Shown: positions 4,178 through 31,441 of the stretch, piece after piece | How positions within the stretch are numbered: position 1 is the first letter of the stretch | Layout: each line of letters begins with the position of its first letter | Origin: Clostridia bacterium | GTDB lineage: Bacteria; Bacillota; Clostridia; UMGS1883; UMGS1540 | DNA length: 32,011 bases | Reading direction: 5' to 3' | Assembly (NCBI GenBank): GCA_029006755.1 | Contig: JAQXGO010000013.1 | Coordinates: forward strand, 1 to 32,011 | Made by a program: the position numbers and the translations under genes | The notes under the pieces: model-generated | The model's database searches: none | The model's input: the letters and a program-made list of their open reading frames with translations, nothing else | Told to the model about the DNA's origin: nothing

Positions 4178-5194
4178 TTATGCAAACATGGGGCTGACAG
4201 AAATATCTGCATAAATACGCTTAATTGCTTCAGCAAAAATGTCTGCAACAGATAATACATGAATCTTATCCAGCATTTTTTCAGGAGGCAGAGCAATCGT
4301 ATCCAGAACAACCAATTCCTTAATGGGGCAATTCTGAATTCTTTCCAATGCCGGGCCGGATAAAACCGGGTGCGTGCAACAGGCGTAAATTTCCTTTGCG
4401 CCGCGTTCCATCAAAGCTGAGGCACCATGCGTAATTGTGCCGGCAGTATCAATCATGTCGTCAACCAAAATAATGCGTTTATCTTTAATATCACCGATAA
4501 TATTCATAACTTCGGCAACATTTGCTTTCGGACGTCGCTTATCAATGATGGCGATAGGCACATTCAGACGTTGTGCAAACTTTCTGGCACGCGTTACACT
4601 GCCAAAGTCAGGGGATACAACCACAACATCATCCATATTGTCAGCAAATTTTTTCATAAAATAAGGGGCAAGTTTCGGGAAACCGAGCAGATGGTCAACA
4701 GGAATGTTAAAAAATCCCTGAATCTGCGGTGCATGTAAATCCATAGTCAAAACACGATTTGCACCAGCGGCAGCAATCAAGTCCGCAACAAGTTTTGCGG
4801 AAATCGGATCGCGAGCCTTTGCCTTTCTATCCTGACGTGCATAGCCGTAATAGGGGATCACTGCAGTGATTCGGCCTGCAGATGCACGCTTGAAAGCATC
4901 AATCATAATCAATAATTCCATGAGGTTGTCGTTCACAGGATTGCAAGTGGATTGTACCACAAAGACATCAGAGCCACGAACGGTTTCGTTAATATTCACG
5001 AAAATCTCACCGTCGCTAAATTTGCCGACAGTCGACTTACCCAAGGAAATATCATCCATATGAAGAGTGATATCATTTGGGCAAACAAGCTTATACTCTG
5101 CTACTTTGTTTTTGAGTTCCGCTACAATGTCAACAGCAAGCTGAGGGTTTGAGTTGGCGGTGAAAATTTTTATGTCATTTCCATGGGTTATCAT
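4178..5194 (-). CDS. prs: Ribose-phosphate pyrophosphokinase (PRPP synthase)
   Basis: This enzyme makes PRPP from ribose 5-phosphate and ATP for purine, pyrimidine, His, Trp and NAD synthesis. Recognisable segments include [17 protein letters not shown], the ATP/flexible-loop segment [43 protein letters not shown] and the PRPP-binding loop [16 protein letters not shown]. The ATG at 5194 is preferred over one at 5200, because AAGGGAG is 8 nt from the former and only 2 nt from the latter. The protein is about 338 residues, longer than the usual 310-320. The extra length is about 20 residues inserted between the first helix and the [14 protein letters not shown] motif. Its promoter is read at 5295-5323, and 41 nt separate it from the dehydratase gene. 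Confidence 0.95.
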
Positions 5195-5294
5195 TGGCAT
5201 ATCTCCCTTTTCTTAATACTACTATTTGGCAAATACAACTGGATATTCTTGGTAATAGAAAATATCTTAAAACAAACCAAACCTACTTTAAAAT

Positions 5295-5323
5295 ATTATA
5301 CCGCACTTTCGACAAAAAAGCAA
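5295..5323 (-). promoter_or_regulatory. Sigma-A-type promoter of prs (and the cps genes)
   Basis: On the minus strand, TTGCTT (5318-5323) and TATAAT (5295-5300) are separated by exactly 17 nt. The promoter sits right behind the trmFO stop codon and about 100 nt ahead of the prs start. The leader of roughly 90 nt shows no riboswitch I recognise. No other promoter is obvious down to cpsB, so prs, the dehydratase and cpsCDB may share this one. Confidence 0.72.
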
Positions 5324-5326
5324 CAC

Positions 5327-6631
5327 TTATTTAGTGAAAAGTGCAAAAAAATCTTTCAAATGCGATAGAGAACGTAAAGACAGTGTTTCATATCTTGTGC
5401 GCTTATCGCGAATCCTTTCATTCAGGGGCGGCAAAAGACCAAAATTGGCATTCATAGGTTGAAAGACGCCTTTTGTATCTTCAGAAATATAATGTGAAAG
5501 CGCACCCAGCATACTTTCTCTTGGTAAAACGAGTGTTTCCTGTCCGCATGCACGACGAAAAGCATTCATGCCTGCCATAATGCCGGCAGCGGCGGATTCC
5601 ATATAGCCCTCAACGCCTGTAATCTGTCCTGCAAAAAAAATGTTCGGATAGGCACGCAAGGAAAAATCCGGGGACAAAACCTTGGGAGAATCAATAAAGC
5701 TATTTCTGTGCATAACACCATATCGGGCGAAAACAGCATCATGCAGTGCCGGAATCATAGAAAACACGCGCTTTTGTTCGCCCCATTTTAAGTTGGTTTG
5801 AAAACCGACAAGATTAAAAAGCGTACCGGCTTTATTGTCCTGCCGAAGCTGGACGGCGGCGTACGGACGAGAATTGTCTGCCGGATTGGTTAATCCTACC
5901 GGACGAAGCGGGCCGAAACGCAAAGTGTCCATACCGCGAGATGCCATCACCTCTACCGGCATGCAACCCTCAAAAACCGTTTTATGATCTGCTTCGTGTA
6001 AAACAGCACATTCAGCCGATAATAAAGCTTCGTAAAAAGCAGTATATTCTTCCTGATTCATCGGACAGTTTATGTAATCATCGCCTCCGCGCCCGTATCG
6101 GGCGCCCAAAAAGGCCCGTGACATGTCAATGCTGTCTCGGTAAACAATTGGGGCGGCAGCATCGTAAAAACTGAGACTGTCGCCGGTGAGTGTTTTGATA
6201 TCCTCTGCTAAGGAACCATCCGTTAACGGACCGGTGCAAACAACAACAAAGCCATCCCGCGGGATTTTGGTCATTTCCTCCCGGACAAGGGTAATGCGAG
6301 GGTGGCCTTCGATTTTTTCCGTTACAAGCGCGGCGAAAACATTCCGATCCACTGCCAGCGCGCCACCGGCCGGAACAGCGGATGCAGCTGCACATTGCAG
6401 CGTAATGGATCCCAATAGGCGCATTTCTTCTTTTAACAGGCCGCTTGCACTATCTAAACGATCTGCCTTTAGAGAATTACTGCAAACCAGTTCACATAAA
6501 GATTCAAGTCGGTGTGCCGGAGAAAAACGTATGGGCTTCATTTCGTGTAAAATCACGTCAGCTCCATAATTTGCAGCCTGAAAAGCGGCTTCGCAGCCTG
6601 CAAGACCGCCGCCAATTACATGAATTTGCAT
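5327..6631 (-). CDS. trmFO: Methylenetetrahydrofolate-tRNA-(uracil-5-)-methyltransferase TrmFO
   Basis: This is the folate- and FAD-dependent enzyme that methylates U54 in the T-loop of tRNA. The FAD-binding Rossmann motif is HVIGGGLAGCEAAFQAA at residues 4-20. Family signatures are SNSLKADRLDSASGLLKEE and the C-terminal ITGVEGYMESAAAGIMAG. The product has 434 residues, the normal size. The start is the ATG at 6631, with GGAG 6 nt upstream, rather than the longer frame. It begins 10 nt after the topA stop, the common topA-trmFO pairing in Bacillota, so the two are probably one transcript. No clear terminator follows; the prs promoter begins almost at its stop codon. Confidence 0.95.
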   Translation of the reverse strand: MQIHVIGGGLAGCEAAFQAANYGADVILHEMKPIRFSPAHRLESLCELVCSNSLKADRLDSASGLLKEEMRLLGSITLQCAAASAVPAGGALAVDRNVFAALVTEKIEGHPRITLVREEMTKIPRDGFVVVCTGPLTDGSLAEDIKTLTGDSLSFYDAAAPIVYRDSIDMSRAFLGARYGRGGDDYINCPMNQEEYTAFYEALLSAECAVLHEADHKTVFEGCMPVEVMASRGMDTLRFGPLRPVGLTNPADNSRPYAAVQLRQDNKAGTLFNLVGFQTNLKWGEQKRVFSMIPALHDAVFARYGVMHRNSFIDSPKVLSPDFSLRAYPNIFFAGQITGVEGYMESAAAGIMAGMNAFRRACGQETLVLPRESMLGALSHYISEDTKGVFQPMNANFGLLPPLNERIRDKRTRYETLSLRSLSHLKDFFALFTK

Positions 6632-6641
6632 GGTATACTCC

Positions 6642-8696
6642 TTATTTGCAATCTTTATTGGAGCAGGCCACAAAGTGCGATTTGCCCCTTCTTTTTTCTA
6701 CCAAGGGACTTTCGCACTTATTGCAAAGCTGCCCGGTAGGCTTATCCCAAAGCATTACATCGCAGTTGTCGCTATTTTCACATACGTAGAAAAGGCGGCC
6801 CTTTTTAGAAACGCGTTCCAGAATTTTATTGCCGCATTTAGGACAGGGCACGCCAATGTCCTTGGTAATCGGTTTTGCATTTCTGCATTCAGGGAATCCG
6901 GGACAGGCTAAAAATTTGCCAAAACGTCCCATTTTATACACCATCGTCCGGCCACATTTTTCGCAGATAACGTCCGATTCTTCATCTCGAACTTCCATCT
7001 TGCCGATGGCGGCATCTGCTTTTTGCAGTGTATCAGAAAATGGCACATAGAAAGCGCGCACTAATGAAACCCAGTCTTCCGTACCTTCTTCCACATGGTC
7101 AAGCTGTGCTTCCATATCTGCTGTGAATTCAACGTTAATAATATTGCCAAAATAGTCCTTCATAAGTTCGGTGGTTACATAGCCAAGTTCTGTGGGATAA
7201 AACAGCTTTTTCTCGCGCACTACATAGCCACGGGTTAATATAGTGGAAATAGTCGGCGCATAGGTGCTCGGACGTCCGATGCCCTTTTCCTCCATAGCTC
7301 GAACCAATGCACCTTCTGTATAGCGAGAAGGCGGTTCCGTAAAGTTCTGCTGTTTCTCCAGCTTTTTCAGTGTCAAGATTTGTCCTTTGGTCAAGGAAGG
7401 CAAGGCACCGCTAATACTATCATCCGCATCATCTCCATAAAGCATTTCAAAGCCTTTGAATTTTTGTTTGGAGAAAGAGGCTTTGAAAATATAATCGGCA
7501 GCGGAAATATCAGTTTGCAGTGTTTCGTATACGGCGTTTGCCATTTGGCTTGCCATAAACCGTTCCCAAATCAGCTTATAAAGCTTATACTGGTCGTTGG
7601 GGAGGGATTGTTTAGCAAGATCCGGCGTGATGGCAACATTGGTAGGACGAATAGCTTCGTGGGCATCCTGCGCACCGGCACGGCTTTTATAGTAACGGGG
7701 GCTTGGTGGATTAAACTTCTCCCCATATTTTTCGGCAATAAAGAGGCGGGCGGCTTCCATGGCTTCTACGGATACACGCAGGGAGTCTGTACGCATGTAC
7801 GTGATAAGACCAACTGTACCGTACTCCTGCACATCCACACCTTCATATAAAATCTGCGCGGCTGCCATGGTTTTACGAGAAGTAAAGCCTAAGCGTCTTG
7901 AAGCTTCCTGCTGGAGCGTGCTGGTGGTAAAGGGCGGCGCAGGACTTTTTTGCTTTTCGTCATATTTGGCGGCAGCTACCGTAAAGTCTGATTTTTCAAG
8001 AATAGAGTATATTTCCTCAGCCGTCTGCTGATTTGAAATGGTTAGCTTCTTGCTGCCCTTTCCATGAAAACGAGCTTTAAACTCTGCTTTATGTTTCGGG
8101 TCCTTTAATACGGCGCTTAGTGTCCAGTATTCGTCGGGAATAAAGCCTTCAATTTCCTGCTCACGCTCTACAACAAGACGCGTAACAACAGATTGCACGC
8201 GACCGGCACTTAATCCCTTTTTGATTTTGCGCCATAGAAGCGGACTAAGCTGATAGCCTAAAATACGGTCAACAACTCGGCGTGCTTGCTGTGCATCGAC
8301 TAAAGACAGGTCAATTGCACGCGGCTCACGTACGGCAGCCTTGAGTGCTGTTTTGGTAATCTCATTGAAAGTAATACGGCAGGGAGAGGCGGGATCAAGC
8401 CCTAAAACAGAGGCCAAATGCCATGCAATGGCTTCTCCTTCGCGGTCAGGGTCAGTGGCCAGATACACATGGTCCGCTGCCTTGGCTTCTTTTTTCAAAG
8501 AAGCCATTAGATCTCCTTTCCCTCGAATTGTAATGTACTTGGGCATAAAGTTATTTTCAAGATCAATACCGAGCTGACTTTTCGGCAAATCCCGCAAATG
8601 ACCGAAAGATGCAACGACCGTATAGTCGCGCCCTAAATATTTTTTAATTGTTTTCGCTTTCGCGGGCGATTCCACAATGATTAAATATTTAGCCAT
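6642..8696 (-). CDS. topA: DNA topoisomerase I (type IA)
   Basis: This enzyme relaxes negatively supercoiled DNA through a 5'-phosphotyrosine intermediate. The N-terminal Toprim domain shows YLIIVESPAKAKTIKKYLG and the metal motif TDPDREGEAIAWH. The catalytic tyrosine is in GLITYMRTDS at about residue 300. Three C-terminal zinc-ribbon-like Cys4 modules follow, starting CEKCGRTMV, CPKCGNKIL and CNKCESPLV. The product has 684 residues, within the family range. The ATG at 8696 follows AAGGAAG; the longer frame upstream is just untranslated leader and promoter. It is co-oriented and nearly contiguous with trmFO. Confidence 0.97.
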   Translation of the reverse strand: MAKYLIIVESPAKAKTIKKYLGRDYTVVASFGHLRDLPKSQLGIDLENNFMPKYITIRGKGDLMASLKKEAKAADHVYLATDPDREGEAIAWHLASVLGLDPASPCRITFNEITKTALKAAVREPRAIDLSLVDAQQARRVVDRILGYQLSPLLWRKIKKGLSAGRVQSVVTRLVVEREQEIEGFIPDEYWTLSAVLKDPKHKAEFKARFHGKGSKKLTISNQQTAEEIYSILEKSDFTVAAAKYDEKQKSPAPPFTTSTLQQEASRRLGFTSRKTMAAAQILYEGVDVQEYGTVGLITYMRTDSLRVSVEAMEAARLFIAEKYGEKFNPPSPRYYKSRAGAQDAHEAIRPTNVAITPDLAKQSLPNDQYKLYKLIWERFMASQMANAVYETLQTDISAADYIFKASFSKQKFKGFEMLYGDDADDSISGALPSLTKGQILTLKKLEKQQNFTEPPSRYTEGALVRAMEEKGIGRPSTYAPTISTILTRGYVVREKKLFYPTELGYVTTELMKDYFGNIINVEFTADMEAQLDHVEEGTEDWVSLVRAFYVPFSDTLQKADAAIGKMEVRDEESDVICEKCGRTMVYKMGRFGKFLACPGFPECRNAKPITKDIGVPCPKCGNKILERVSKKGRLFYVCENSDNCDVMLWDKPTGQLCNKCESPLVEKRRGKSHFVACSNKDCK

Positions 8697-22893: not shown

Positions 22894-22990
22894 CAGACTG
22901 TCGAAAAACTCGGTCTACCACAAGCAAAGTATATATTGCATTTAAAAAGTTGACTTCTGTGTCCTGCAGCGCAGCGCATATCAAAATGTT

Positions 22991-23028
22991 AAAACCGCAA
23001 GGAAAACGTCGAATTTCCCTTGCGGTTT
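22991..23028. repeat. Inverted repeat, possible bidirectional terminator
   Basis: AAACCGCAAGG pairs with CCTTGCGGTTT (11 bp, 15-nt loop). On the plus strand CTTGTTTTTT follows and on the minus strand TTTT follows. No plus-strand gene ends here, so the plus-strand T-tract has no obvious client. Confidence 0.55.
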
Positions 23029-23039
23029 CTTGTTTTTTA

Positions 23040-23118: not shown

Positions 23119-23145
23119 CAGCGTGTCGACGTTATCGCCACGCTG
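23119..23145. repeat. Inverted repeat CAGCGTG/CACGCTG
   Basis: A 7-bp stem, with CGA/TCG pairing continued inside after one mismatch. It abuts the next inverted repeat directly. Confidence 0.5.
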
Positions 23146-23174
23146 CAGCATCCCAATTGTCAATTGGGATGCTG
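23146..23174. repeat. Near-perfect 29-bp palindrome behind the glycan locus
   Basis: CAGCATCCCAATTG and CAATTGGGATGCTG are perfect 14-bp inverted copies around one central T. It lies about 36 nt past the stop of the SLH protein gene. There is no T-tract, so it may act as a 3' stability hairpin or be the end of a small repeat element. Apart from these repeats and the possible small ORF, I see nothing in 22686-23209. Confidence 0.6.
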
Positions 23175-23209
23175 GTTCGTTGTCATATTCTTTTATATCG
23201 GTTTGAATT

Positions 23210-26200
23210 TTATTTCCAGGAGAGAATACGGCTCATAATTACTGCGGCCTCTGCTCTTGTTGTATTACCGAGAGGATTTACCGTACCATCTGGATTGCCT
23301 TTAACAATGCCAGCATCTACCATGGCCGCAATGTCAGCCTTTGCATACTCTGCAATAGAAGCAGAATCCGCAAAAGAGGTAAGGTCAACGTTTTGCCCAA
23401 GCTCTTTGATAAGGCGCATACCACGGGCACAAATTACCATTAGGTCTTGTCTTGAAATAGCTTCATCCGGGTTGTAGTTTACGCCGTCCGTTCCCTTTAA
23501 GATGCCAATTGCTTTTCCGATGGCGATTTCCTTGGCAAATTCATTGTCCTTAGAAACATCGGCAAATTGTTCGTTCTCCGCAGCGGTAAGGTCTAAGGCA
23601 CGAATCAAGAATCCTGCAAATTCTGCTCTTGTAATATTTCGGGCCGGTGCATAGCTCATGGGAGAATTCTCGTTGGAAATATTCTTTTCACGAAGATTTT
23701 CAATCTGATTTCTGGCCCAGGCGTAGTCCCCTAAATCCAGATACTGACAAGGTACAAAGGTGGAGAAATCTACGCCGTTTGCAATAATTTCGTAAAGTTT
23801 TGCACCGCATGGATTTAAGGAAACGGAGAGGGTACCATCTCCAGTAAACGTATCATTGTCGCCGCCGATGCATTTTGCTGTACAAGCGCCGATTTTTACG
23901 CTGCCATCACCGCTTGTCAGGGGAATCTCAATGGTGGTTTCCTCCTTTTCAAGCCGGGAAATAACAGCCATATACAGTTTGCCGTCCTTGATAAAACAAC
24001 GATACCAAGCATTTTCTGCTCTGCCCTCGGTGAAGGTGGGGGTGTCCATGCCGGAAAAGGCTTCATAAACAACAGGGAGCTCTACTTGTGCTAATGACTT
24101 GATACCATCCCACATTTCTACTTGGTTAAGACGGATATTTTCACCATTCTCATTTTGGTCTGCTTCGCCCCAAGTGTAGTAGCCAATGGCACGAGCGCCA
24201 ACAAAGAGCGCCTGATATGCCATAGAACGAATTTCCTCGCTTGAGGGAAGAAAACCGCCTCGGTATGCCTGGAGGATTGCCCATACCGGTTTTTCACTTT
24301 GTACACTTTCCCTGGCCTTTTGCATCTGTGAGGTGACATAGGTTGTCTTGGAACGAGAAGAGGTGGGATAGGGGTCTGTTGCCAAAATATCACAGAATTT
24401 AGAAGACCAGTTGAAGGTGATATCCTGATTATCATTTATATATACCGGATGATTTGGATCGATGTCCCTGATAAACTTGTATGAATCCTTTAACATTTCA
24501 ATACAGTCGAAATAAGGAAGTTTACCGAAGGGTTCATCTTGTACCATCCAGCATAAGATGTTGGGGTCATTCTTGTATTTTTCCAGGATACGTCTCGTAG
24601 AATCAATATTGTCCTCAAAAATGGGACCACCGCCGTTTCTATATAGGGCAACCATTGCCATCATGCCGGCTTCTCTAATTTTTTTCATGGAATTGTCGAA
24701 CTCTTTTTCTGTCTGGAAGGTAATCTGTACACTGTTAATGCCGCCTTCCTTAGCCTCCTCATAGTACTTGCTGTTATGATGGTAGGAGAAGATGGGGTAG
24801 AAGGGCTCACCTTCGCGGCGGAAAATACCGTCCTCCGGCAGATAGTTGGGTCGGGGATACATATATACATCCGTGGAATGCTCTTCGATGACGTTGCCGG
24901 AACCATCGTGGATTCTGGCCACAACGTCAAACCGTTCCTGCATTTTCGTCTTTAATGCATCAGTAGGATAGGTAAAGCTTACGGCGCCATTTTCAAAGGC
25001 TCGGGGCGGCTGTTCGCACACTACGGTATTGCCGTCCATTAGGGCGAAGGAAACGGTTTTACTCTCTATTTCTGTCATGTTAGGGGTGGGCTTTACGGTT
25101 GCAGTACCAGTTTTAAAGTCCGGATAATAAAACACCCAGTCCGTTTCAAAAGAGGCCATCTTTGGGATTTGAGTTTTGTATAGCTGGAAGTCATCAAAGT
25201 ATACGGTGCCTTCGCCATACAGACGGGGATAGAATGCAACACCGTGACAGCCTGCCGGAGTTTGAAAAGTCTGAAATACTTCAACCCAGCCCTTGCCTGC
25301 TTCAACAAGGCCACGCTGGCTGGTCAGGAATTCATAACCGAGAGAGGTTTCCGCTGAGGAACGAGGTTCGGAATAGAATTCAAACTTGACACGCGCAGCG
25401 GCATCAGAACCTTCACCACCACTGACAAATCGTTTCCCGAGCTCTGTTGCTTTAACCCAGAATACCATAACGTATTCTGTGGCAGGCTCTACTTCAATCA
25501 TCTGGCTAATCCATGGATTTACGGGGTTTTTGTAGTTTGGATCATCTTTATATTTTTCTGTAAACTCATGCTTATAGTGAAGTTTTACAGCGTAATTTCC
25601 GGAATGTTTTTCTTCACTGGTAATGCTAACCATAGGGTTATCATCTTTCCAACCTTTATAAGCATTCCAGCCAGCAGTTCCGTTTTCAAAGCCGCCAATA
25701 TTCGCACCATTTTCGTCCACCATAAAGTCGGTTGCACCGTCAGGGATGGTGACAGTTAAAGGCTCAATGGTGATGACATCCTCAAAACCGCCGTTTAAAG
25801 GGTTTTCATAGTCTGAAACCTCCATCTGATCCCAAAAAACGGATACGCCTTCCGGCAACGCCCCAGTATCGAGGCAAACAACGACAAGTCCATCTTCCGG
25901 GGCTTCGAATTGCGCAGTAAGCTTCGTCCATTTTTGGGCATCGGTTACATTATCAGACAGAGCGTAAGCAGCAGCCTGACCGGACTTATATTCCGGTGTA
26001 ATACGAATCATCATGCCCGTGCCTGAAAAATTGACTTTTTTTGAAATCTTGGCATACGAAGAAACTGTGTAGGTTTTCCCAGGTTCAAGACCATAAAGCT
26101 GGTACCAAACACGGCTGGATTTGTCCATCTTATTAAAGATTTCCATGGAGTACTTTCCCTCATAAGCCTCTTTGTCTGTTACTCTTGCCTGGATTCTTTT

Positions 26201-26350
26201 TTCTGTAGCATAGCCGCCGGCGCCAACGCCCCAGCCATCAGCCCAGGTGTAGGTTTCTGCCTGTTCAGTCAGAACTTTGGCGGCTAAAGCCGGAAGAGAG
26301 GAAAATATCATACAGATTGAAAGAAATACAATAGCAATACGTTTTATCAT
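23210..26350 (-). CDS. Exported, SLH-anchored multidomain protein with TIM-barrel glycosidase-like domain
   Basis: The protein has about 1046 residues. A signal peptide (about 1-24, ending ALAA) is followed by two jelly-roll carbohydrate-binding-like modules (about 30-180 and 215-395, each closing with a WDQMEV or FDDFQLY strand), a linker beta domain (400-500), and a TIM-barrel-like domain (505-770). That domain carries WMVQDEPFGKLPYF (Asp605, Glu606), VYINDNQDITF, CDILATDPYP and VWAILQAYRGG. A beta-domain and three SLH repeats (from about 868) complete it; SLH repeats bind wall polymers. I do not know the glycosidase family. Glu606 is the likely acid/base, but no second Glu conserved with its paralogue is evident. 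AAAGGA at 8 nt picks the ATG at 26350. Confidence 0.85.
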   Translation of the reverse strand: MIKRIAIVFLSICMIFSSLPALAAKVLTEQAETYTWADGWGVGAGGYATEKRIQARVTDKEAYEGKYSMEIFNKMDKSSRVWYQLYGLEPGKTYTVSSYAKISKKVNFSGTGMMIRITPEYKSGQAAAYALSDNVTDAQKWTKLTAQFEAPEDGLVVVCLDTGALPEGVSVFWDQMEVSDYENPLNGGFEDVITIEPLTVTIPDGATDFMVDENGANIGGFENGTAGWNAYKGWKDDNPMVSITSEEKHSGNYAVKLHYKHEFTEKYKDDPNYKNPVNPWISQMIEVEPATEYVMVFWVKATELGKRFVSGGEGSDAAARVKFEFYSEPRSSAETSLGYEFLTSQRGLVEAGKGWVEVFQTFQTPAGCHGVAFYPRLYGEGTVYFDDFQLYKTQIPKMASFETDWVFYYPDFKTGTATVKPTPNMTEIESKTVSFALMDGNTVVCEQPPRAFENGAVSFTYPTDALKTKMQERFDVVARIHDGSGNVIEEHSTDVYMYPRPNYLPEDGIFRREGEPFYPIFSYHHNSKYYEEAKEGGINSVQITFQTEKEFDNSMKKIREAGMMAMVALYRNGGGPIFEDNIDSTRRILEKYKNDPNILCWMVQDEPFGKLPYFDCIEMLKDSYKFIRDIDPNHPVYINDNQDITFNWSSKFCDILATDPYPTSSRSKTTYVTSQMQKARESVQSEKPVWAILQAYRGGFLPSSEEIRSMAYQALFVGARAIGYYTWGEADQNENGENIRLNQVEMWDGIKSLAQVELPVVYEAFSGMDTPTFTEGRAENAWYRCFIKDGKLYMAVISRLEKEETTIEIPLTSGDGSVKIGACTAKCIGGDNDTFTGDGTLSVSLNPCGAKLYEIIANGVDFSTFVPCQYLDLGDYAWARNQIENLREKNISNENSPMSYAPARNITRAEFAGFLIRALDLTAAENEQFADVSKDNEFAKEIAIGKAIGILKGTDGVNYNPDEAISRQDLMVICARGMRLIKELGQNVDLTSFADSASIAEYAKADIAAMVDAGIVKGNPDGTVNPLGNTTRAEAAVIMSRILSWK

Positions 26351-26368
26351 TTTATACATCCTTTCTTG

Positions 26369-29182
26369 TTACTTTTTAGAAATGCAAGGGGATAAGCTCA
26401 TTTCCCATACCATGGATTGAAAAGTACCGAGAGCTGCAGGGATAGGAAGAGATAAGGAACCTGTAGCCGGTACATAACTATACACTGTTTTGCCACCATG
26501 GACGGCTATAGGTGTCGCGACCGCCTCTTTTTTTAGAATTTCTAAAGAAAGAAGCTCTCGTATCCCTTCTACATAAGTCCCGTTCATCAAAAGGGTGGGT
26601 TTATATATGCCACTGTAGTGAATCATATAGTCCGTTCCTTGCTGTTCCTTAAAAAGATGAGGCCGAACCTCGTGCAAAGTCAGTGCTGTAATCTTTCCAG
26701 TGCCTCCTGTATCGCCTACTATTAAAACTGTATCTGCACCATGGTCTACCCCATAAAAATAGAGGTTAATATTTCCAGAGGTAGGGATAACATATTGATT
26801 CAGAACTGCTGCCTCGATCTCTTCTGCAGTTCCAAGACCACAGATAATGTCAGCAGTAGAATCCGTATTTTCGTAGATAAAGCTTACTTCATAAAGTGTG
26901 GCAGCGGATAGAGACGGTATCGAATATACCATAGCATTGCCGCGCTTAACGCCTTCGCCTAAATCAATATTGCTTTCATATAAGATAGGAAGCTCTTTGG
27001 AGATTTCCTGTATGGACGGCCAAAGGGCAGTCTGAGAAAGGGGAGATTCTCCGTCTGCATTGCAGTAACGATAGTACCCAATGCCAGTAGCACCCATATG
27101 GATTGAGGCCCGCACCATATCCCAAAGAAGAGCACTATCCGGTAGCATATCGTAATATCGGAAGGCCTGCAAAATAGGATAGAAGGTCTTTTGCTGTACT
27201 TTGGCGGCCTGACGAAGCTTATCTGTCTGCTGCAGTACGTAGCCTACCTTGTCGTCTTTTTTTGCGGGATAGGGATCTGTCAGAAGAATATCACAAAACT
27301 TGGCAGAATCTGTAAACGACGCATCACGGTTGTCATTTAACATAACCGGATGCATTTTATCAATATCACGAATTAGCTTGTACGCTTTGGATAGAGTTTC
27401 TATACAAGTGAAATAGGGGAGTTTGTCAAATGGTTCGTCCAGCAACAAATACCCTAGTACATTGGGGTCATTCTGATAGGTTTTAATAATGCTTTTAATT
27501 ATATTCACATTATCTTCCGATATTAGACTTTCACCGTCTAAATGGATGTAAATCATGGCCATCAGGTCTGCCTCCCGAACCTTTGCCATGGTGGTTGCAA
27601 GGCCAGCCTCCGTTTCAAAGGTAACCTGCACTGTATTCATACCGGCAGCTTTGACTGTACTGTAAGACTCCTGTGGGACGGAGTAACAGAAATAGGGGTA
27701 AAAATCCATCCCGTTTTTCTGATAAATTCCGCTCTGAGGGAGGTTTTTCGGTCTATCATACATATAAATAGGTGTTTGGTAGGTTTCCTGAACTTGGTCA
27801 TCCTTATATACTGTGCATTTTAGCGTAAACTCTGCACTATAGGCAGAGCCTTTTTTAGAAAGCATAGAGTCGGAAGAAAAGCGGCAGTCAACTTTAGTAT
27901 CTGTCAGGCTAATGCCAGTTTCTTCCGCCAGCTTCTCTTTACCGTACCATAGGGAGAAATCAACACATCGACCGGTAACTGTATCGTCTATAACAGACAA
28001 GGAGGCGGTAAAGGCTTTGTTATCCGGATAGAGATATACGCTGTCAGTTGATAGAATTGTTTCTCCGAAGCTTTCAAGCTGGTAGAGAGCAAAGTCATCA
28101 AAAAATGCTGTGCCGGTATTAAAGTAAAGCCTTGGAAGAATGGCTAAAACGTTGCAGTTCGGCATAGTGTCAATCACTTGATAAAACTGCTTCCATTCAC
28201 TCACTTCGCCCAAGGCTCCAGTAATAAGCGAAGTGCCTTGGGAAGAGTATTTTGTCATATCCTTATAAAATTCTACTTTCACTCGTGGAACGCCTAATGT
28301 GCCAGAAGCCATTTTGCAGTAGCCGGTTAAAAGGTATTTAGAGTTTGGAGAAACAGGTACTTTTATACTGCAGTAAGGGTCAATAGCATTATAGTTTGTT
28401 TTGAAGGATGTTTCATAGTGTATGGCGGCTGCGCGTGATCCGTTTCGGCCGCAATTTTCCGGGAAGGAAATCATGGGATTTATGATTTCATTGCTGGGAT
28501 TATATTTGTGCCACAGGCTATCGTCCTCGAAGCTGCCGGCAAGAGCTAAAAGATTTGGACTGTCCTCTGGGATTTCAAATGTGGCAGGGCCTAACGTTGA
28601 AACTTCTTCAAATCCGCCGTTTAAAGTCTTTCCTTCCAAGTTCACATCGTCCCATAAAACGCTTTCACTGTCAGAAATCTGAGGACTGTCCAGCGCAATG
28701 ACCACATTTCCATTTGTTGGAATATTACCGGATAATGTAAGTGAAAGTAGTGTCCATACACCGGTTTTTTTGGTGTAGGCATGCGCAAGGGAGTTGGACT
28801 GCCCACGGTTTTCATGGTCAAGTATCAAAAGACCAAGACCATTACCTCCAATATTTTCAATGTCACCCTTTACATAGCAGGAAACCGTATAGCTTCCCTC
28901 CGGGTCAAGACCGAAAATGCGGGTGAAAATCCGGCTGGCTTTTTTGTCGCTCTTAGACAGAATTTTCATGGCGTAGTTGCCAGTTTTCCCTGGAGAGACA
29001 GCGAAAGCGTTTATTCCTTTTTCCGTTTTATAGTTCGAAAGGTCTGAGGTGTACCAACCATCCGGCCATAGGCAGACCGGTTGCCCGGTGTCTATCTGCA
29101 ACTGCCAGGCAAGCGTCGGCATGCCGGCGGAAATCACACATACGGCAAGAAGAAGACACAACAATGTATATTTTTTTTTCAT
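26369..29182 (-). CDS. Exported multidomain protein, paralogue of the SLH-anchored neighbour, no SLH
   Basis: This 937-residue protein has a signal peptide (about 1-25), two jelly-roll modules (about 28-185 and 210-370, closing with WDDVNL and FDDFALYQ), a beta linker, and a TIM-barrel-like domain (about 485-735). Motifs aligned with the downstream neighbour are LLLDEPFDKLPYFTCIE (Asp582, Glu583), VMLNDNRDASF, CDILLTDPYP and FYPILQAFRYY. The C-terminal 200 residues are a different beta-rich region, and no SLH repeats are present, so it is probably secreted or loosely bound. The start lies 6 nt after the GH89-like stop codon, with GGAAGTAG serving as ribosome site inside the previous gene's end. 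The gene pair looks like a tandem duplication followed by divergence. Substrate unknown. Confidence 0.83.
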   Translation of the reverse strand: MKKKYTLLCLLLAVCVISAGMPTLAWQLQIDTGQPVCLWPDGWYTSDLSNYKTEKGINAFAVSPGKTGNYAMKILSKSDKKASRIFTRIFGLDPEGSYTVSCYVKGDIENIGGNGLGLLILDHENRGQSNSLAHAYTKKTGVWTLLSLTLSGNIPTNGNVVIALDSPQISDSESVLWDDVNLEGKTLNGGFEEVSTLGPATFEIPEDSPNLLALAGSFEDDSLWHKYNPSNEIINPMISFPENCGRNGSRAAAIHYETSFKTNYNAIDPYCSIKVPVSPNSKYLLTGYCKMASGTLGVPRVKVEFYKDMTKYSSQGTSLITGALGEVSEWKQFYQVIDTMPNCNVLAILPRLYFNTGTAFFDDFALYQLESFGETILSTDSVYLYPDNKAFTASLSVIDDTVTGRCVDFSLWYGKEKLAEETGISLTDTKVDCRFSSDSMLSKKGSAYSAEFTLKCTVYKDDQVQETYQTPIYMYDRPKNLPQSGIYQKNGMDFYPYFCYSVPQESYSTVKAAGMNTVQVTFETEAGLATTMAKVREADLMAMIYIHLDGESLISEDNVNIIKSIIKTYQNDPNVLGYLLLDEPFDKLPYFTCIETLSKAYKLIRDIDKMHPVMLNDNRDASFTDSAKFCDILLTDPYPAKKDDKVGYVLQQTDKLRQAAKVQQKTFYPILQAFRYYDMLPDSALLWDMVRASIHMGATGIGYYRYCNADGESPLSQTALWPSIQEISKELPILYESNIDLGEGVKRGNAMVYSIPSLSAATLYEVSFIYENTDSTADIICGLGTAEEIEAAVLNQYVIPTSGNINLYFYGVDHGADTVLIVGDTGGTGKITALTLHEVRPHLFKEQQGTDYMIHYSGIYKPTLLMNGTYVEGIRELLSLEILKKEAVATPIAVHGGKTVYSYVPATGSLSLPIPAALGTFQSMVWEMSLSPCISKK

Positions 29183-29188
29183 AATTAA

Positions 29189-31426
29189 CTACTTCCATAA
29201 CTTACGGATGTTGTTAGCAGCCTCCTGCATAAGGACGGGGAATGCGGGTGCAGCTCTATCCATTTCGGCAAAAGGTAGAGCAAAAAAGCACTCCTTGTTC
29301 TTGACAGCCATTTCCTTGTAGGAGCTGCTGTCCGGCAGGCTGTGGTCACCTTTTTCAAAGGACAGCGCAAGCCATTTGCCCACAATTGCTGTTTCCGGCA
29401 GATACAGATATTTCATGTTTTCATATACATAAGCACGATGGTATTCACATGTAGCGTTCTCTTTTAAGGTATGCTCAAATACGGGATTTACAGGATGCTC
29501 TTCCTGGAGTCTTTTTAAAGAGGCGACCAAAGAATAGTCATCGTGACCGGCAAGCACCTGACAGAGAATTTCAAGAAGAGCTGCTGCCTTCTGGTAGAGA
29601 GGGAGTACCTCACAATCTTTGCCATTTTTCCAGTCAATCATACGAGCGATCACATCGCCCTGCGCCACGTGAATATAGCGGCCAATGAGTGTCCTTGCAA
29701 TATCATAGGCATCCCGGCGAATCATATCGTCCGTCAGGTCTATTGTCGCTAAAGTCTCTAAAATCCATGCAGCATCCTCGGCCATTTTGGCAAGCCGTTC
29801 CGGCTTTTCACAGCGGATGGCCATCTCCTTCTCAATGTACGTCATCATAAGGATGGGATTAAAGAAGAATTCGGAATAGCTCCACCAGTCTTGCATTTCC
29901 ACAAAAGGCTGAAATGCTTTATAGACTTCTGTCAGCTTTTCAGTATCATAGGCGTACCGATCTTTGGCATATTTTTCAATGCGTTCCTCCATGGTGAGCT
30001 CTAAAGGCGACCAAGCATTGGAGGTGAAATATTCGCTCATAAATGTGTCTGAGTGAGAAACTTCCGGCCAATAAATAAGACCACGACACATTTTGTCCGC
30101 TGCTGCAATCTTAAGCCGCTCCTCCGTAATGGCGTAGTCGCCACGAACATCGTTATTTCTGGAATATGCGTGAAAAATACCAAAAATATACGGAAATTTG
30201 CCTATTGTACCCCATTTTGTAAAGTTATTGTCCTTTTTAGAATCAGAGGTGTAATCAAGGAGAATGGTAGAATCCGGGTCAAATTCCTCTAATAGTTTTG
30301 CAGCCTCCTCCGGGGTATACTTAAACCATAAATCCCAGGAGGCAATCATAAGGGGTGCATTGGGGTAATTTTTGCGCACATATTCTCCAATCCGACGGTA
30401 GACGTACTGCTTCATCCGCATATTTACCGCCCTGTCCTCAGAGAACATCCGCTCGGCAAAGCCAATGGTGTGGAAAAGCTGGGGTCTTCCGTATTCTCTG
30501 ATATGCGCTTCGGTAATGGAAAAGTATTTCTGCAGCCATTTATCTTTGCGAATATCCCAACAGAGCTGCTCCGGGTCGCCATAGTTCGCTGTGGCCTGGT
30601 CAAAGAACTCCGGCTTTTCATTTTCGATAAAATCAAGTGGGGTAGGCGTATACCAATGGGTCATGGTGCCACAGTCCTCCGGGTGCATTAAATCCCGGTC
30701 AAAAGCGTAGGACAATACCTTTTTACGAAGTTCGCCCCTGTATCGCAGACCCCAGGCCGACGTCCTGTCGTAGAACATTTTTTTACCCGGACTCTGAAAA
30801 TCATCCTCTGGGGGATATTGACAGCTTTCCGGAAAAGCTTTCTGAAAAATATCGTCATGACCAATGCGGAGCATAAAGAGGTTAAGCCTCTTTTTCAGCA
30901 TCCAGTCAATCTCACGTTTCCAGTCCTCCCAGCCCCAATGCTCTGCTTGAAAGCGCCAAAGCCCTCTATGGGCAAAATAGCGAAGACCGCGGTAGGAGAG
31001 CTTCGGCCGTTCAACAATATCAATACCGTCAATCAATAAGGCGTTTTTCTCCGGAACCCGGTCACCATCCCAGAACCAGCGGCAGCCGCAAACCTTTTCC
31101 AGATAAGTGTAAACGGCGTATAATATCGCGCGACCCCGTCCGCCGCCTATGAAAAGAAAGCTTCTTCCACGCATACGAACACCTCGTATCGCATAGTCCT
31201 CAGAACCATAGCGAATGGGGAATCCGGCAAATTCACCAGATAGAAAAACCTCCGCAGTAAAATGATTGACTGCATCCGTACCAATTAAAACGTAGTCACT
31301 TTTCCCGTCGTCCGCAGTATCGACAGGAATGTCCCGACCTGTAATTAGCCGATGATATTTCATAAATTCCATGTACGCCGCTTCATGAGCGGTGTCCATA
31401 GCATGGGGCTTTAAAAGCTTTAGCAT
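29189..31426 (-). CDS. GH89-like alpha-N-acetylglucosaminidase (NAGLU family), cytoplasmic
   Basis: This protein of about 745 residues has the NAGLU three-part layout: an N-terminal alpha/beta domain (to about 125, with the segment GRGRAILYAVYTYLEKVCG), a barrel, and a helical C-terminal domain from about 475. The barrel begins LSYRGLRYFAHRG with WEDWKREIDWMLKKRLNLFM, the family hallmark. Candidate catalytic glutamates are in IGFAERM (Glu325) and YWPEVSHSD (Glu455). Their 130-residue separation matches that of human NAGLU as I remember it (316 and 446). Family members remove terminal alpha-linked GlcNAc from heparan, mucin or related glycans. There is no signal peptide, so it should act inside the cell. 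GGAGG at 8 nt selects the ATG at 31426, 15 nt past the upstream stop. Confidence 0.8.
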   Translation of the reverse strand: MLKLLKPHAMDTAHEAAYMEFMKYHRLITGRDIPVDTADDGKSDYVLIGTDAVNHFTAEVFLSGEFAGFPIRYGSEDYAIRGVRMRGRSFLFIGGGRGRAILYAVYTYLEKVCGCRWFWDGDRVPEKNALLIDGIDIVERPKLSYRGLRYFAHRGLWRFQAEHWGWEDWKREIDWMLKKRLNLFMLRIGHDDIFQKAFPESCQYPPEDDFQSPGKKMFYDRTSAWGLRYRGELRKKVLSYAFDRDLMHPEDCGTMTHWYTPTPLDFIENEKPEFFDQATANYGDPEQLCWDIRKDKWLQKYFSITEAHIREYGRPQLFHTIGFAERMFSEDRAVNMRMKQYVYRRIGEYVRKNYPNAPLMIASWDLWFKYTPEEAAKLLEEFDPDSTILLDYTSDSKKDNNFTKWGTIGKFPYIFGIFHAYSRNNDVRGDYAITEERLKIAAADKMCRGLIYWPEVSHSDTFMSEYFTSNAWSPLELTMEERIEKYAKDRYAYDTEKLTEVYKAFQPFVEMQDWWSYSEFFFNPILMMTYIEKEMAIRCEKPERLAKMAEDAAWILETLATIDLTDDMIRRDAYDIARTLIGRYIHVAQGDVIARMIDWKNGKDCEVLPLYQKAAALLEILCQVLAGHDDYSLVASLKRLQEEHPVNPVFEHTLKENATCEYHRAYVYENMKYLYLPETAIVGKWLALSFEKGDHSLPDSSSYKEMAVKNKECFFALPFAEMDRAAPAFPVLMQEAANNIRKLWK

Positions 31427-31441
31427 AGTCTGTTCCTCCAT

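Follow-up and report, generated by a model that had tools for sequence, protein, structure and literature searches.

Introduction

To our knowledge, the characterised enzymes of clan GH-A retain configuration by means of a glutamate on strand 7 of the barrel, and GH158, GH2, GH5, GH157 and GH164 all have this nucleophile. In GH20 and GH84, a consecutive pair of acidic residues ends strand 4, and strand 7 carries no nucleophile. GH123 has the same arrangement; its consecutive Asp-Glu is the catalytic pair, in which the aspartate stabilizes the 2-acetamido group and the glutamate is the acid/base (PMC11087588). In the GH42 enzyme BiBga42A, N159 contacts O2 of the -1 sugar, E160 is the acid/base and E318 is the nucleophile (PMC10688820). 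When the nucleophile of BiBga42A is removed, both D285 and Y287 form hydrogen bonds to the alpha-anomeric O1; D285 contacts O2 as well as the alpha-face O1 (PMC10688820). We found no relevant account of a nucleophile-less GH-A family in the literature.

Here we describe two adjacent genes from a clostridial genome (G000; 1.78 Mb, 98% complete) whose products are best called members of a lineage of clan GH-A whose active site is altered and which has expanded to an extreme degree, a lineage that is undescribed in Pfam, NCBIfam and the PDB. The window analysed is an entire contig (C13) of 32011 bases.

Results

Two paralogous barrel proteins and their surroundings

The genes for proteins 1 and 2 lie on the same strand, separated by 9 bp (Table 1). 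Their products are paralogues, with 33% identity over 771 aa (BLASTP, E=1e-126). Protein 1 consists of a signal peptide (called on sequence alone), two CBM_4_9-type modules (Pfam CBM_4_9, 5.2e-13), an Ig-like linker, a TIM barrel, an Ig-like domain and three C-terminal SLH repeats (Pfam SLH, 3.1e-22). Protein 2 has a signal peptide, two jelly-roll modules, a linker, a TIM barrel and a beta-rich C-terminus. It gave one CBM_4_9 match (1.1e-4), slightly under the Pfam cut-off, and Pfam found no SLH repeats in it.

Only 6 bp separate the protein 2 gene from a GH89-like gene upstream of it on the same strand, and the two probably form one operon. GH89 enzymes act on GlcNAc. No GH89-like relative adjoins the other family loci that we examined. 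The partial frame further upstream encodes the C-terminal part of another beta-rich protein, which is probably exported. In two related genomes, G004 and G005, a CBM_4_9 protein of 543-615 aa (L087:2971-4599, L086:8-1852) occupies the place in front of the orthologous pair instead. Downstream of the pair are spoVAC and spoVAD. Directly past the stop codon of protein 1 are two palindromic stretches (23145-23175 and 22985-23030) that resemble terminators at the end of the operon; a T run follows the second.

Table 1. Features of the window, by position
Feature	Position	Strand	Remarks
Protein 1 ORF	23210..26359	minus	1049 aa, open reading frame
SLH repeats of protein 1 (cell-wall anchor)	23234..23725	minus	Pfam SLH; S-layer protein Sap match 2.2e-6
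TIM barrel of protein 1	24050..24850	minus	residues about 504-770; AF2 strands, clan GH-A profile matches
Protein 1 Leu696-Gln697	24269..24274	minus	strand 7 end, GH-A nucleophile Glu site; HHalign and HMMER vs GH42
Protein 1 Asp662-Pro-Tyr664	24368..24376	minus	strand 6 end; equivalent of GH42 D285-x-Y287
Protein 1 Asp608-Glu609-Pro610	24530..24538	minus	strand 4 end; acid/base Glu, Asp replacing GH-A Asn
Protein 2 ORF	26369..29182	minus	937 aa, open reading frame
TIM barrel of protein 2	26972..27751	minus	residues about 478-737; AF2, best Foldseek matches clan GH-A
Protein 2 Leu671-Gln672	27167..27172	minus	equivalent to protein 1 Leu696-Gln697; alignment
Protein 2 Asp636-Pro-Tyr638	27269..27277	minus	equivalent to protein 1 Asp662-Pro-Tyr664; alignment
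Protein 2 Asp582-Glu583-Pro584	27431..27439	minus	equivalent to protein 1 Asp608-Glu609-Pro610; alignment
GH89-like (alpha-N-acetylglucosaminidase type) protein	29189..31441	minus	Pfam NAGLU TIM barrel 2.9e-16
Partial ORF, 3' part, open at contig end	31442-32011	minus	upstream of GH89-like gene

The barrels are related to clan GH-A

The initial annotation had taken both proteins for TIM-barrel proteins that could not be matched to a named GH family, and our results support both statements, the second within Pfam, NCBIfam and the PDB. AlphaFold2, given an alignment of 46 family sequences, predicted the barrels with high confidence (pLDDT 95.0 and pTM 0.93 for residues 395-868 of protein 1; pLDDT 94.6 and pTM 0.91 for the barrel of protein 2). 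The predicted barrel has eight strands alternating with helices, a (beta/alpha)8 fold. In the model of protein 1, strands 4, 5, 6 and 7 end at Asp608, 642, 661 and Gln697, respectively. When the barrel alone was compared with the PDB using Foldseek, the matches were mostly clan GH-A enzymes (GH2, GH164, GH158, GH5, GH157 and GH42), with a TM of about 0.6-0.7 by query. GH158, GH2, GH5, GH157 and GH164 share the barrel and the acid/base position with the family, but identity by structure to clan GH-A enzymes is only 10-15%. The top Foldseek match of a three-domain model was a GH66 dextranase, which owes its rank to a shared Ig-barrel-Ig layout; we rejected this kinship because the rmsd was about 24 Å, none of the 50 matches that ranked highest for the barrel alone was a GH66 enzyme, and no sequence match was found.

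Profile searches matched clan GH-A enzymes only (GH158, GH2, GH5 and GH42). Family profiles searched against PDB chains matched GH158 (1.9e-11) and human beta-glucuronidase of GH2 (3.6e-11), with GH5 and GH42 weaker. When the profile covered the C-terminal half alone, it retrieved GH42 enzymes at E values of 2.6e-5, 7e-5, 0.0015 and 0.05, and the sole further match below E 1 was a galactanase (0.56). HHalign against GH42 proteins gave a probability of 98.3 (E 2.2e-14). Judged by these profiles, the C-terminal half has GH42 as its nearest kin. The Pfam GH42 profile (PF02449) scored 17.6 bits with the whole of protein 1 and 22.3 bits with its barrel alone, against a cut-off of 21 and over a third of the profile only; it did not match protein 2. 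The GH2 TIM-barrel domain (PF02836) scored 15.6 and 18.2 bits, under its gathering score of 21, and the GH123 and GH20 family profiles gave no Pfam match to the barrels. Neither Pfam, NCBIfam nor the PDB provided a family name for the barrel, or a strong match to a characterised family.

The acid/base is kept and the nucleophile is missing

The barrel motifs that the two proteins had been said to share (DEPF-KLPYF-CIE, NDN-D, CDIL-TDPYP and ILQA-R) are present and aligned in both. In profile alignments, DEP falls on the NE acid/base motif of GH158, GH2 and GH5, which agrees with the initial placement of the DEPF acid at the clan-A acid/base site. The late-barrel segments, described as lacking an acid, indeed contain no Asp or Glu (PVWAILQAYRGG and TFYPILQAFRYY). 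The nucleophile glutamate of GH42 ('MEQ' or 'MES') aligns with Leu696, one residue ahead of the conserved Gln697. With the GH42 enzyme 5xb7 the alignment slips by one residue, and the window proteins have no acid in either register.

The family resembles GH42 in the strand-4 acid/base Glu, in Asp-x-Tyr-Pro on strand 6 and in R-x-x-x-Y after strand 7. It differs from GH42 in that the nucleophile Glu is replaced by Leu/Gln, the Asn preceding the acid/base is Asp, the accessory domains are different, and Pfam matches are merely partial. Thus, N159-E160, D285-x-Y287 and E318 of BiBga42A correspond here to D608-E609, D662-x-Y664 and Leu/Gln. It had been suggested that the Asp of TDPYP might serve in place of the nucleophile. 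This Asp is conserved, and both the C-terminal-half profile and HHalign align TDPYP with the GH42 'D-x-YP'; however, canonical GH42 enzymes have the same Asp-x-Tyr beside a normal nucleophile, so its presence alone does not prove a replacement.

We next compared 154 near members of the family, with a median pairwise identity of about 29%. Glu609 is present in all 154, and position 608 is acidic in all 154 (Asp in 151, Glu in 3) and never the Asn of GH-A. Asp662 is found in 146 members and Tyr664 in 153; position 697 is Gln in 118 and Glu in 12, and position 643 is acidic in 139. For strand 7, the register was read from the KP anchor, with K+6 and K+7 as the candidate nucleophile positions. No acid stands at either position in 134 members (87%). 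Among the 20 that have one, six G002 paralogues carry Glu at K+6 (MEQ), the exact GH42 nucleophile position, together with Asp608; examples are L082:14381-17479 and L040:1620-4733, which are nested inside nucleophile-less relatives. A possible interpretation of these paralogues is that they re-gained the canonical nucleophile residue. The other fourteen have an acid at K+7 and fall mostly into one nested clade. A small clade with two sequences from the window genome (L020:6895-10758, L015:11485-14802) and one from G005 (L065:12120-15431) has Glu-Glu (WEEP) for Asp-Glu, and no acid at position 643.

A distant set of 42 members, from Lentisphaerota, Planctomycetota, Hydrogenedentota, KSB1 and other Bacillota, retains Asp608 (40/42), Glu609 (42/42), Asp662 (38/42), Tyr664 (42/42) and Gln697 (36/42). 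The conserved catalytic face is therefore Asp-Glu on strand 4, Asp-x-Tyr on strand 6 and Gln on strand 7, and the conserved Asp/Glu pair that the initial annotation had named as support for an undescribed family exists here. As this signature is kept across phyla, it must be old, and loss of the nucleophile is a trait of the family. This rules out the decay of two isolated genes. We also rejected Asp/Glu643 as the missing catalytic residue, because Asp is found there in only 3 of the 42 distant members and the position matches no catalytic column in the GH42 alignment.

Relatives encoded on three Deinococcus plasmids (L142, L143 and L144) keep Asp608, but have DD for DE on strand 4 and Gln for Asp662. 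These are stand-alone proteins of about 350-410 aa, annotated 'hypothetical protein'; L143 and L144 have two copies each, close together.

Copy number, distribution and gene neighbours

In scans of genome contigs, a single-protein query recovered no relatives, an alignment of close members did, and a 76-row alignment was too diverse. The window genome has 31 family copies, which amount to 94 kb or 5.3% of its 1.78 Mb. Genus g3, in the same family-rank group, contains genomes with 34 copies (G002), 32 copies (G005) and, in a relative from goat rectum (G004), 74 copies whose open frames sum to 237 kb and fill about 9.9% of its 2.4 Mb. Two other genera of this family-rank group have none, and 9 of 391 sampled Clostridia gave any match. 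Among further relatives, one from sheep colon (RGIG5440) has 27 copies in 1.5 Mb, and others come from roe-deer cecum. Genomes of Paenibacillus species, at 7-10 Mb, have 1-8 copies, and 23 were counted in one Lentisphaerae MAG of 14 Mb. No relatives were found on viral contigs.

Most copies are arranged in tandem: 21/31, 28/34, 34/42 and 24/30 copies have a family neighbour on the same strand within 500 bp. All 34 G002 copies fall into one clade, together with a few sequences from G000 and G005, which is the pattern of lineage-specific expansion. On another contig of the window genome (C17), two members with identical matches lie inverted (L019:1521-4808 on the plus strand and 4901-8188 on the minus strand); this pair, which is counted among the 31 copies, may reflect a genuine inverted duplication or an artefact of assembly. 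Of 30 members scanned in the window genome, 26 have CBM_4_9 and 19 have SLH.

In G000 and related genomes, the family has GH4, GH35, GH78, GH106, DUF5107 and CBM_4_9-only proteins as neighbours. The neighbours that recur elsewhere are alpha-L-rhamnosidases (GH78/GH106), while GH35 and GH4 are single cases. In Paenibacillus, a GH78/GH106 rhamnosidase occurs no more than 15 kb away from 8 of 32 copies, where 1.5 would be expected; as four of the eight seem to represent a single conserved GH78 arrangement and GH genes cluster anyway, this link is only suggestive. The relatives on the Deinococcus plasmids are found within or next to clusters for polysaccharide synthesis, whose other products include glycosyltransferases, flippases, O-antigen ligases and LCP proteins; such clusters often encode a glycosyl hydrolase (PMC9075953).

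Discussion

Our best explanation, which we put forward tentatively, is that proteins 1 and 2 are exported glycoside hydrolases of an undescribed clan GH-A family that have no enzyme nucleophile and may act by substrate assistance through Asp608-Glu609. The two CBM_4_9-type modules, and in protein 1 the SLH repeats, would hold the enzyme on its glycan and at the cell surface. Glu609 would be the acid/base, with no nucleophile supplied by the enzyme. Asp608, at the place of the GH-A Asn, would orient and polarise the 2-acetamido group of the substrate, and this group would attack C1, as happens in GH123 and GH20 (Asp-Glu) and, with Asp-Asp, in GH84. Tyr664, Asp662 and Gln697 may line the space vacated by the lost nucleophile. 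Since the Asn of GH-A contacts O2 of the -1 sugar, a change from Asn to Asp would set a carboxylate beside the 2-substituent. We prefer substrate assistance because it accounts for both changes, at position 608 and at the nucleophile, and for the DD variant of Deinococcus. The family shares with GH123, GH20 and GH84 the consecutive acidic pair that ends strand 4 and the lack of a strand-7 nucleophile, but its barrels have no sequence-profile match to them; this likeness would therefore be convergence, not membership.

Catalysis, the substrate-assisted route and a HexNAc-containing substrate are what we infer from these features. The GH89-like immediate neighbour and the position of the Deinococcus relatives at polysaccharide-synthesis clusters count for an amino-sugar substrate. 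In contrast, the recurrent GH78/GH106 neighbours and the single GH35 and GH4 neighbours do not point to amino sugars. In addition, the combination of the MEQ Glu with Asp608 in the six G002 paralogues is at odds with a pocket remodelled around an acetamido group.

The main rival is an inverting glycosidase, which we consider unlikely but worth serious attention. Here Glu609 would be the general acid and Asp662, helped by Tyr664 and Gln697, would activate a water on the alpha face, which casts the initial suggestion for the TDPYP Asp as a mechanism. Asp662 is strongly conserved (146/154 near and 38/42 distant members) and could be the inverting base instead; its counterpart and that of Tyr664 bind the alpha-anomeric O1 in nucleophile-less BiBga42A (PMC10688820), at the position that an inverting water would take, and the widely conserved Gln697 could position that water. 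However, the equivalent Asp is also conserved in GH42 enzymes that have their Glu nucleophile, so its conservation needs no new role. An inverting mechanism also leaves the conserved Asn-to-Asp change at 608 unaccounted for, and the Deinococcus relatives have Gln at 662. As these relatives keep Asp608 and have DD on strand 4, the 608/609 pair appears to fit better than a 609/662 pair.

It is less probable still that the barrel is a pseudo-glycosidase that serves as a glycan-binding module and was multiplied as an adhesin or a variable surface layer. The absence of the nucleophile from 87% of members, the very high copy number and the frequency of CBM_4_9 (26/30) and SLH (19/30) in the window genome would all suit such a coat, but known glycoside hydrolases are common as neighbours, Tyr664 is kept in 153/154 near members, and the strict retention of Glu609 (154/154 near, 42/42 distant) is not expected of a merely binding barrel. 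We give little credence to the idea that these are ordinary retaining GH-A enzymes whose nucleophile comes from Asp662, Asp643 or a loop acid, or from a strand-7 Glu re-gained in some members. A strand-7 acid does stand at K+6 or K+7 in 20/154 members, but two nested clades account for most of these, and neither window protein has one. An acid occupies position 643 in 139/154 near members and is lost outside the near family (Asp in 3/42). We saw no further conserved acid on the catalytic face.

Taken more broadly, and with nearly even confidence for and against, the family may be a cross-phylum branch of GH-A that gave up its nucleophile and adopted a mechanism new to the clan, either Asp-Glu substrate assistance or inversion. 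In two clostridial lineages of the ruminant hindgut, it would have grown into tens of surface-anchored enzymes for different linkages of complex glycans, with up to one-tenth of a small genome given over to them. How glycosidases change mechanism can be studied, as in a natural experiment, in a widespread branch that has lost the strand-7 Glu and kept the acid/base. The family also represents a large set of candidate enzymes that are nameless under standard annotation, and the 74 copies in one 2.4-Mb genome mark a strategy of glycan foraging, so far uncharacterised, among bacteria of the ruminant hindgut.
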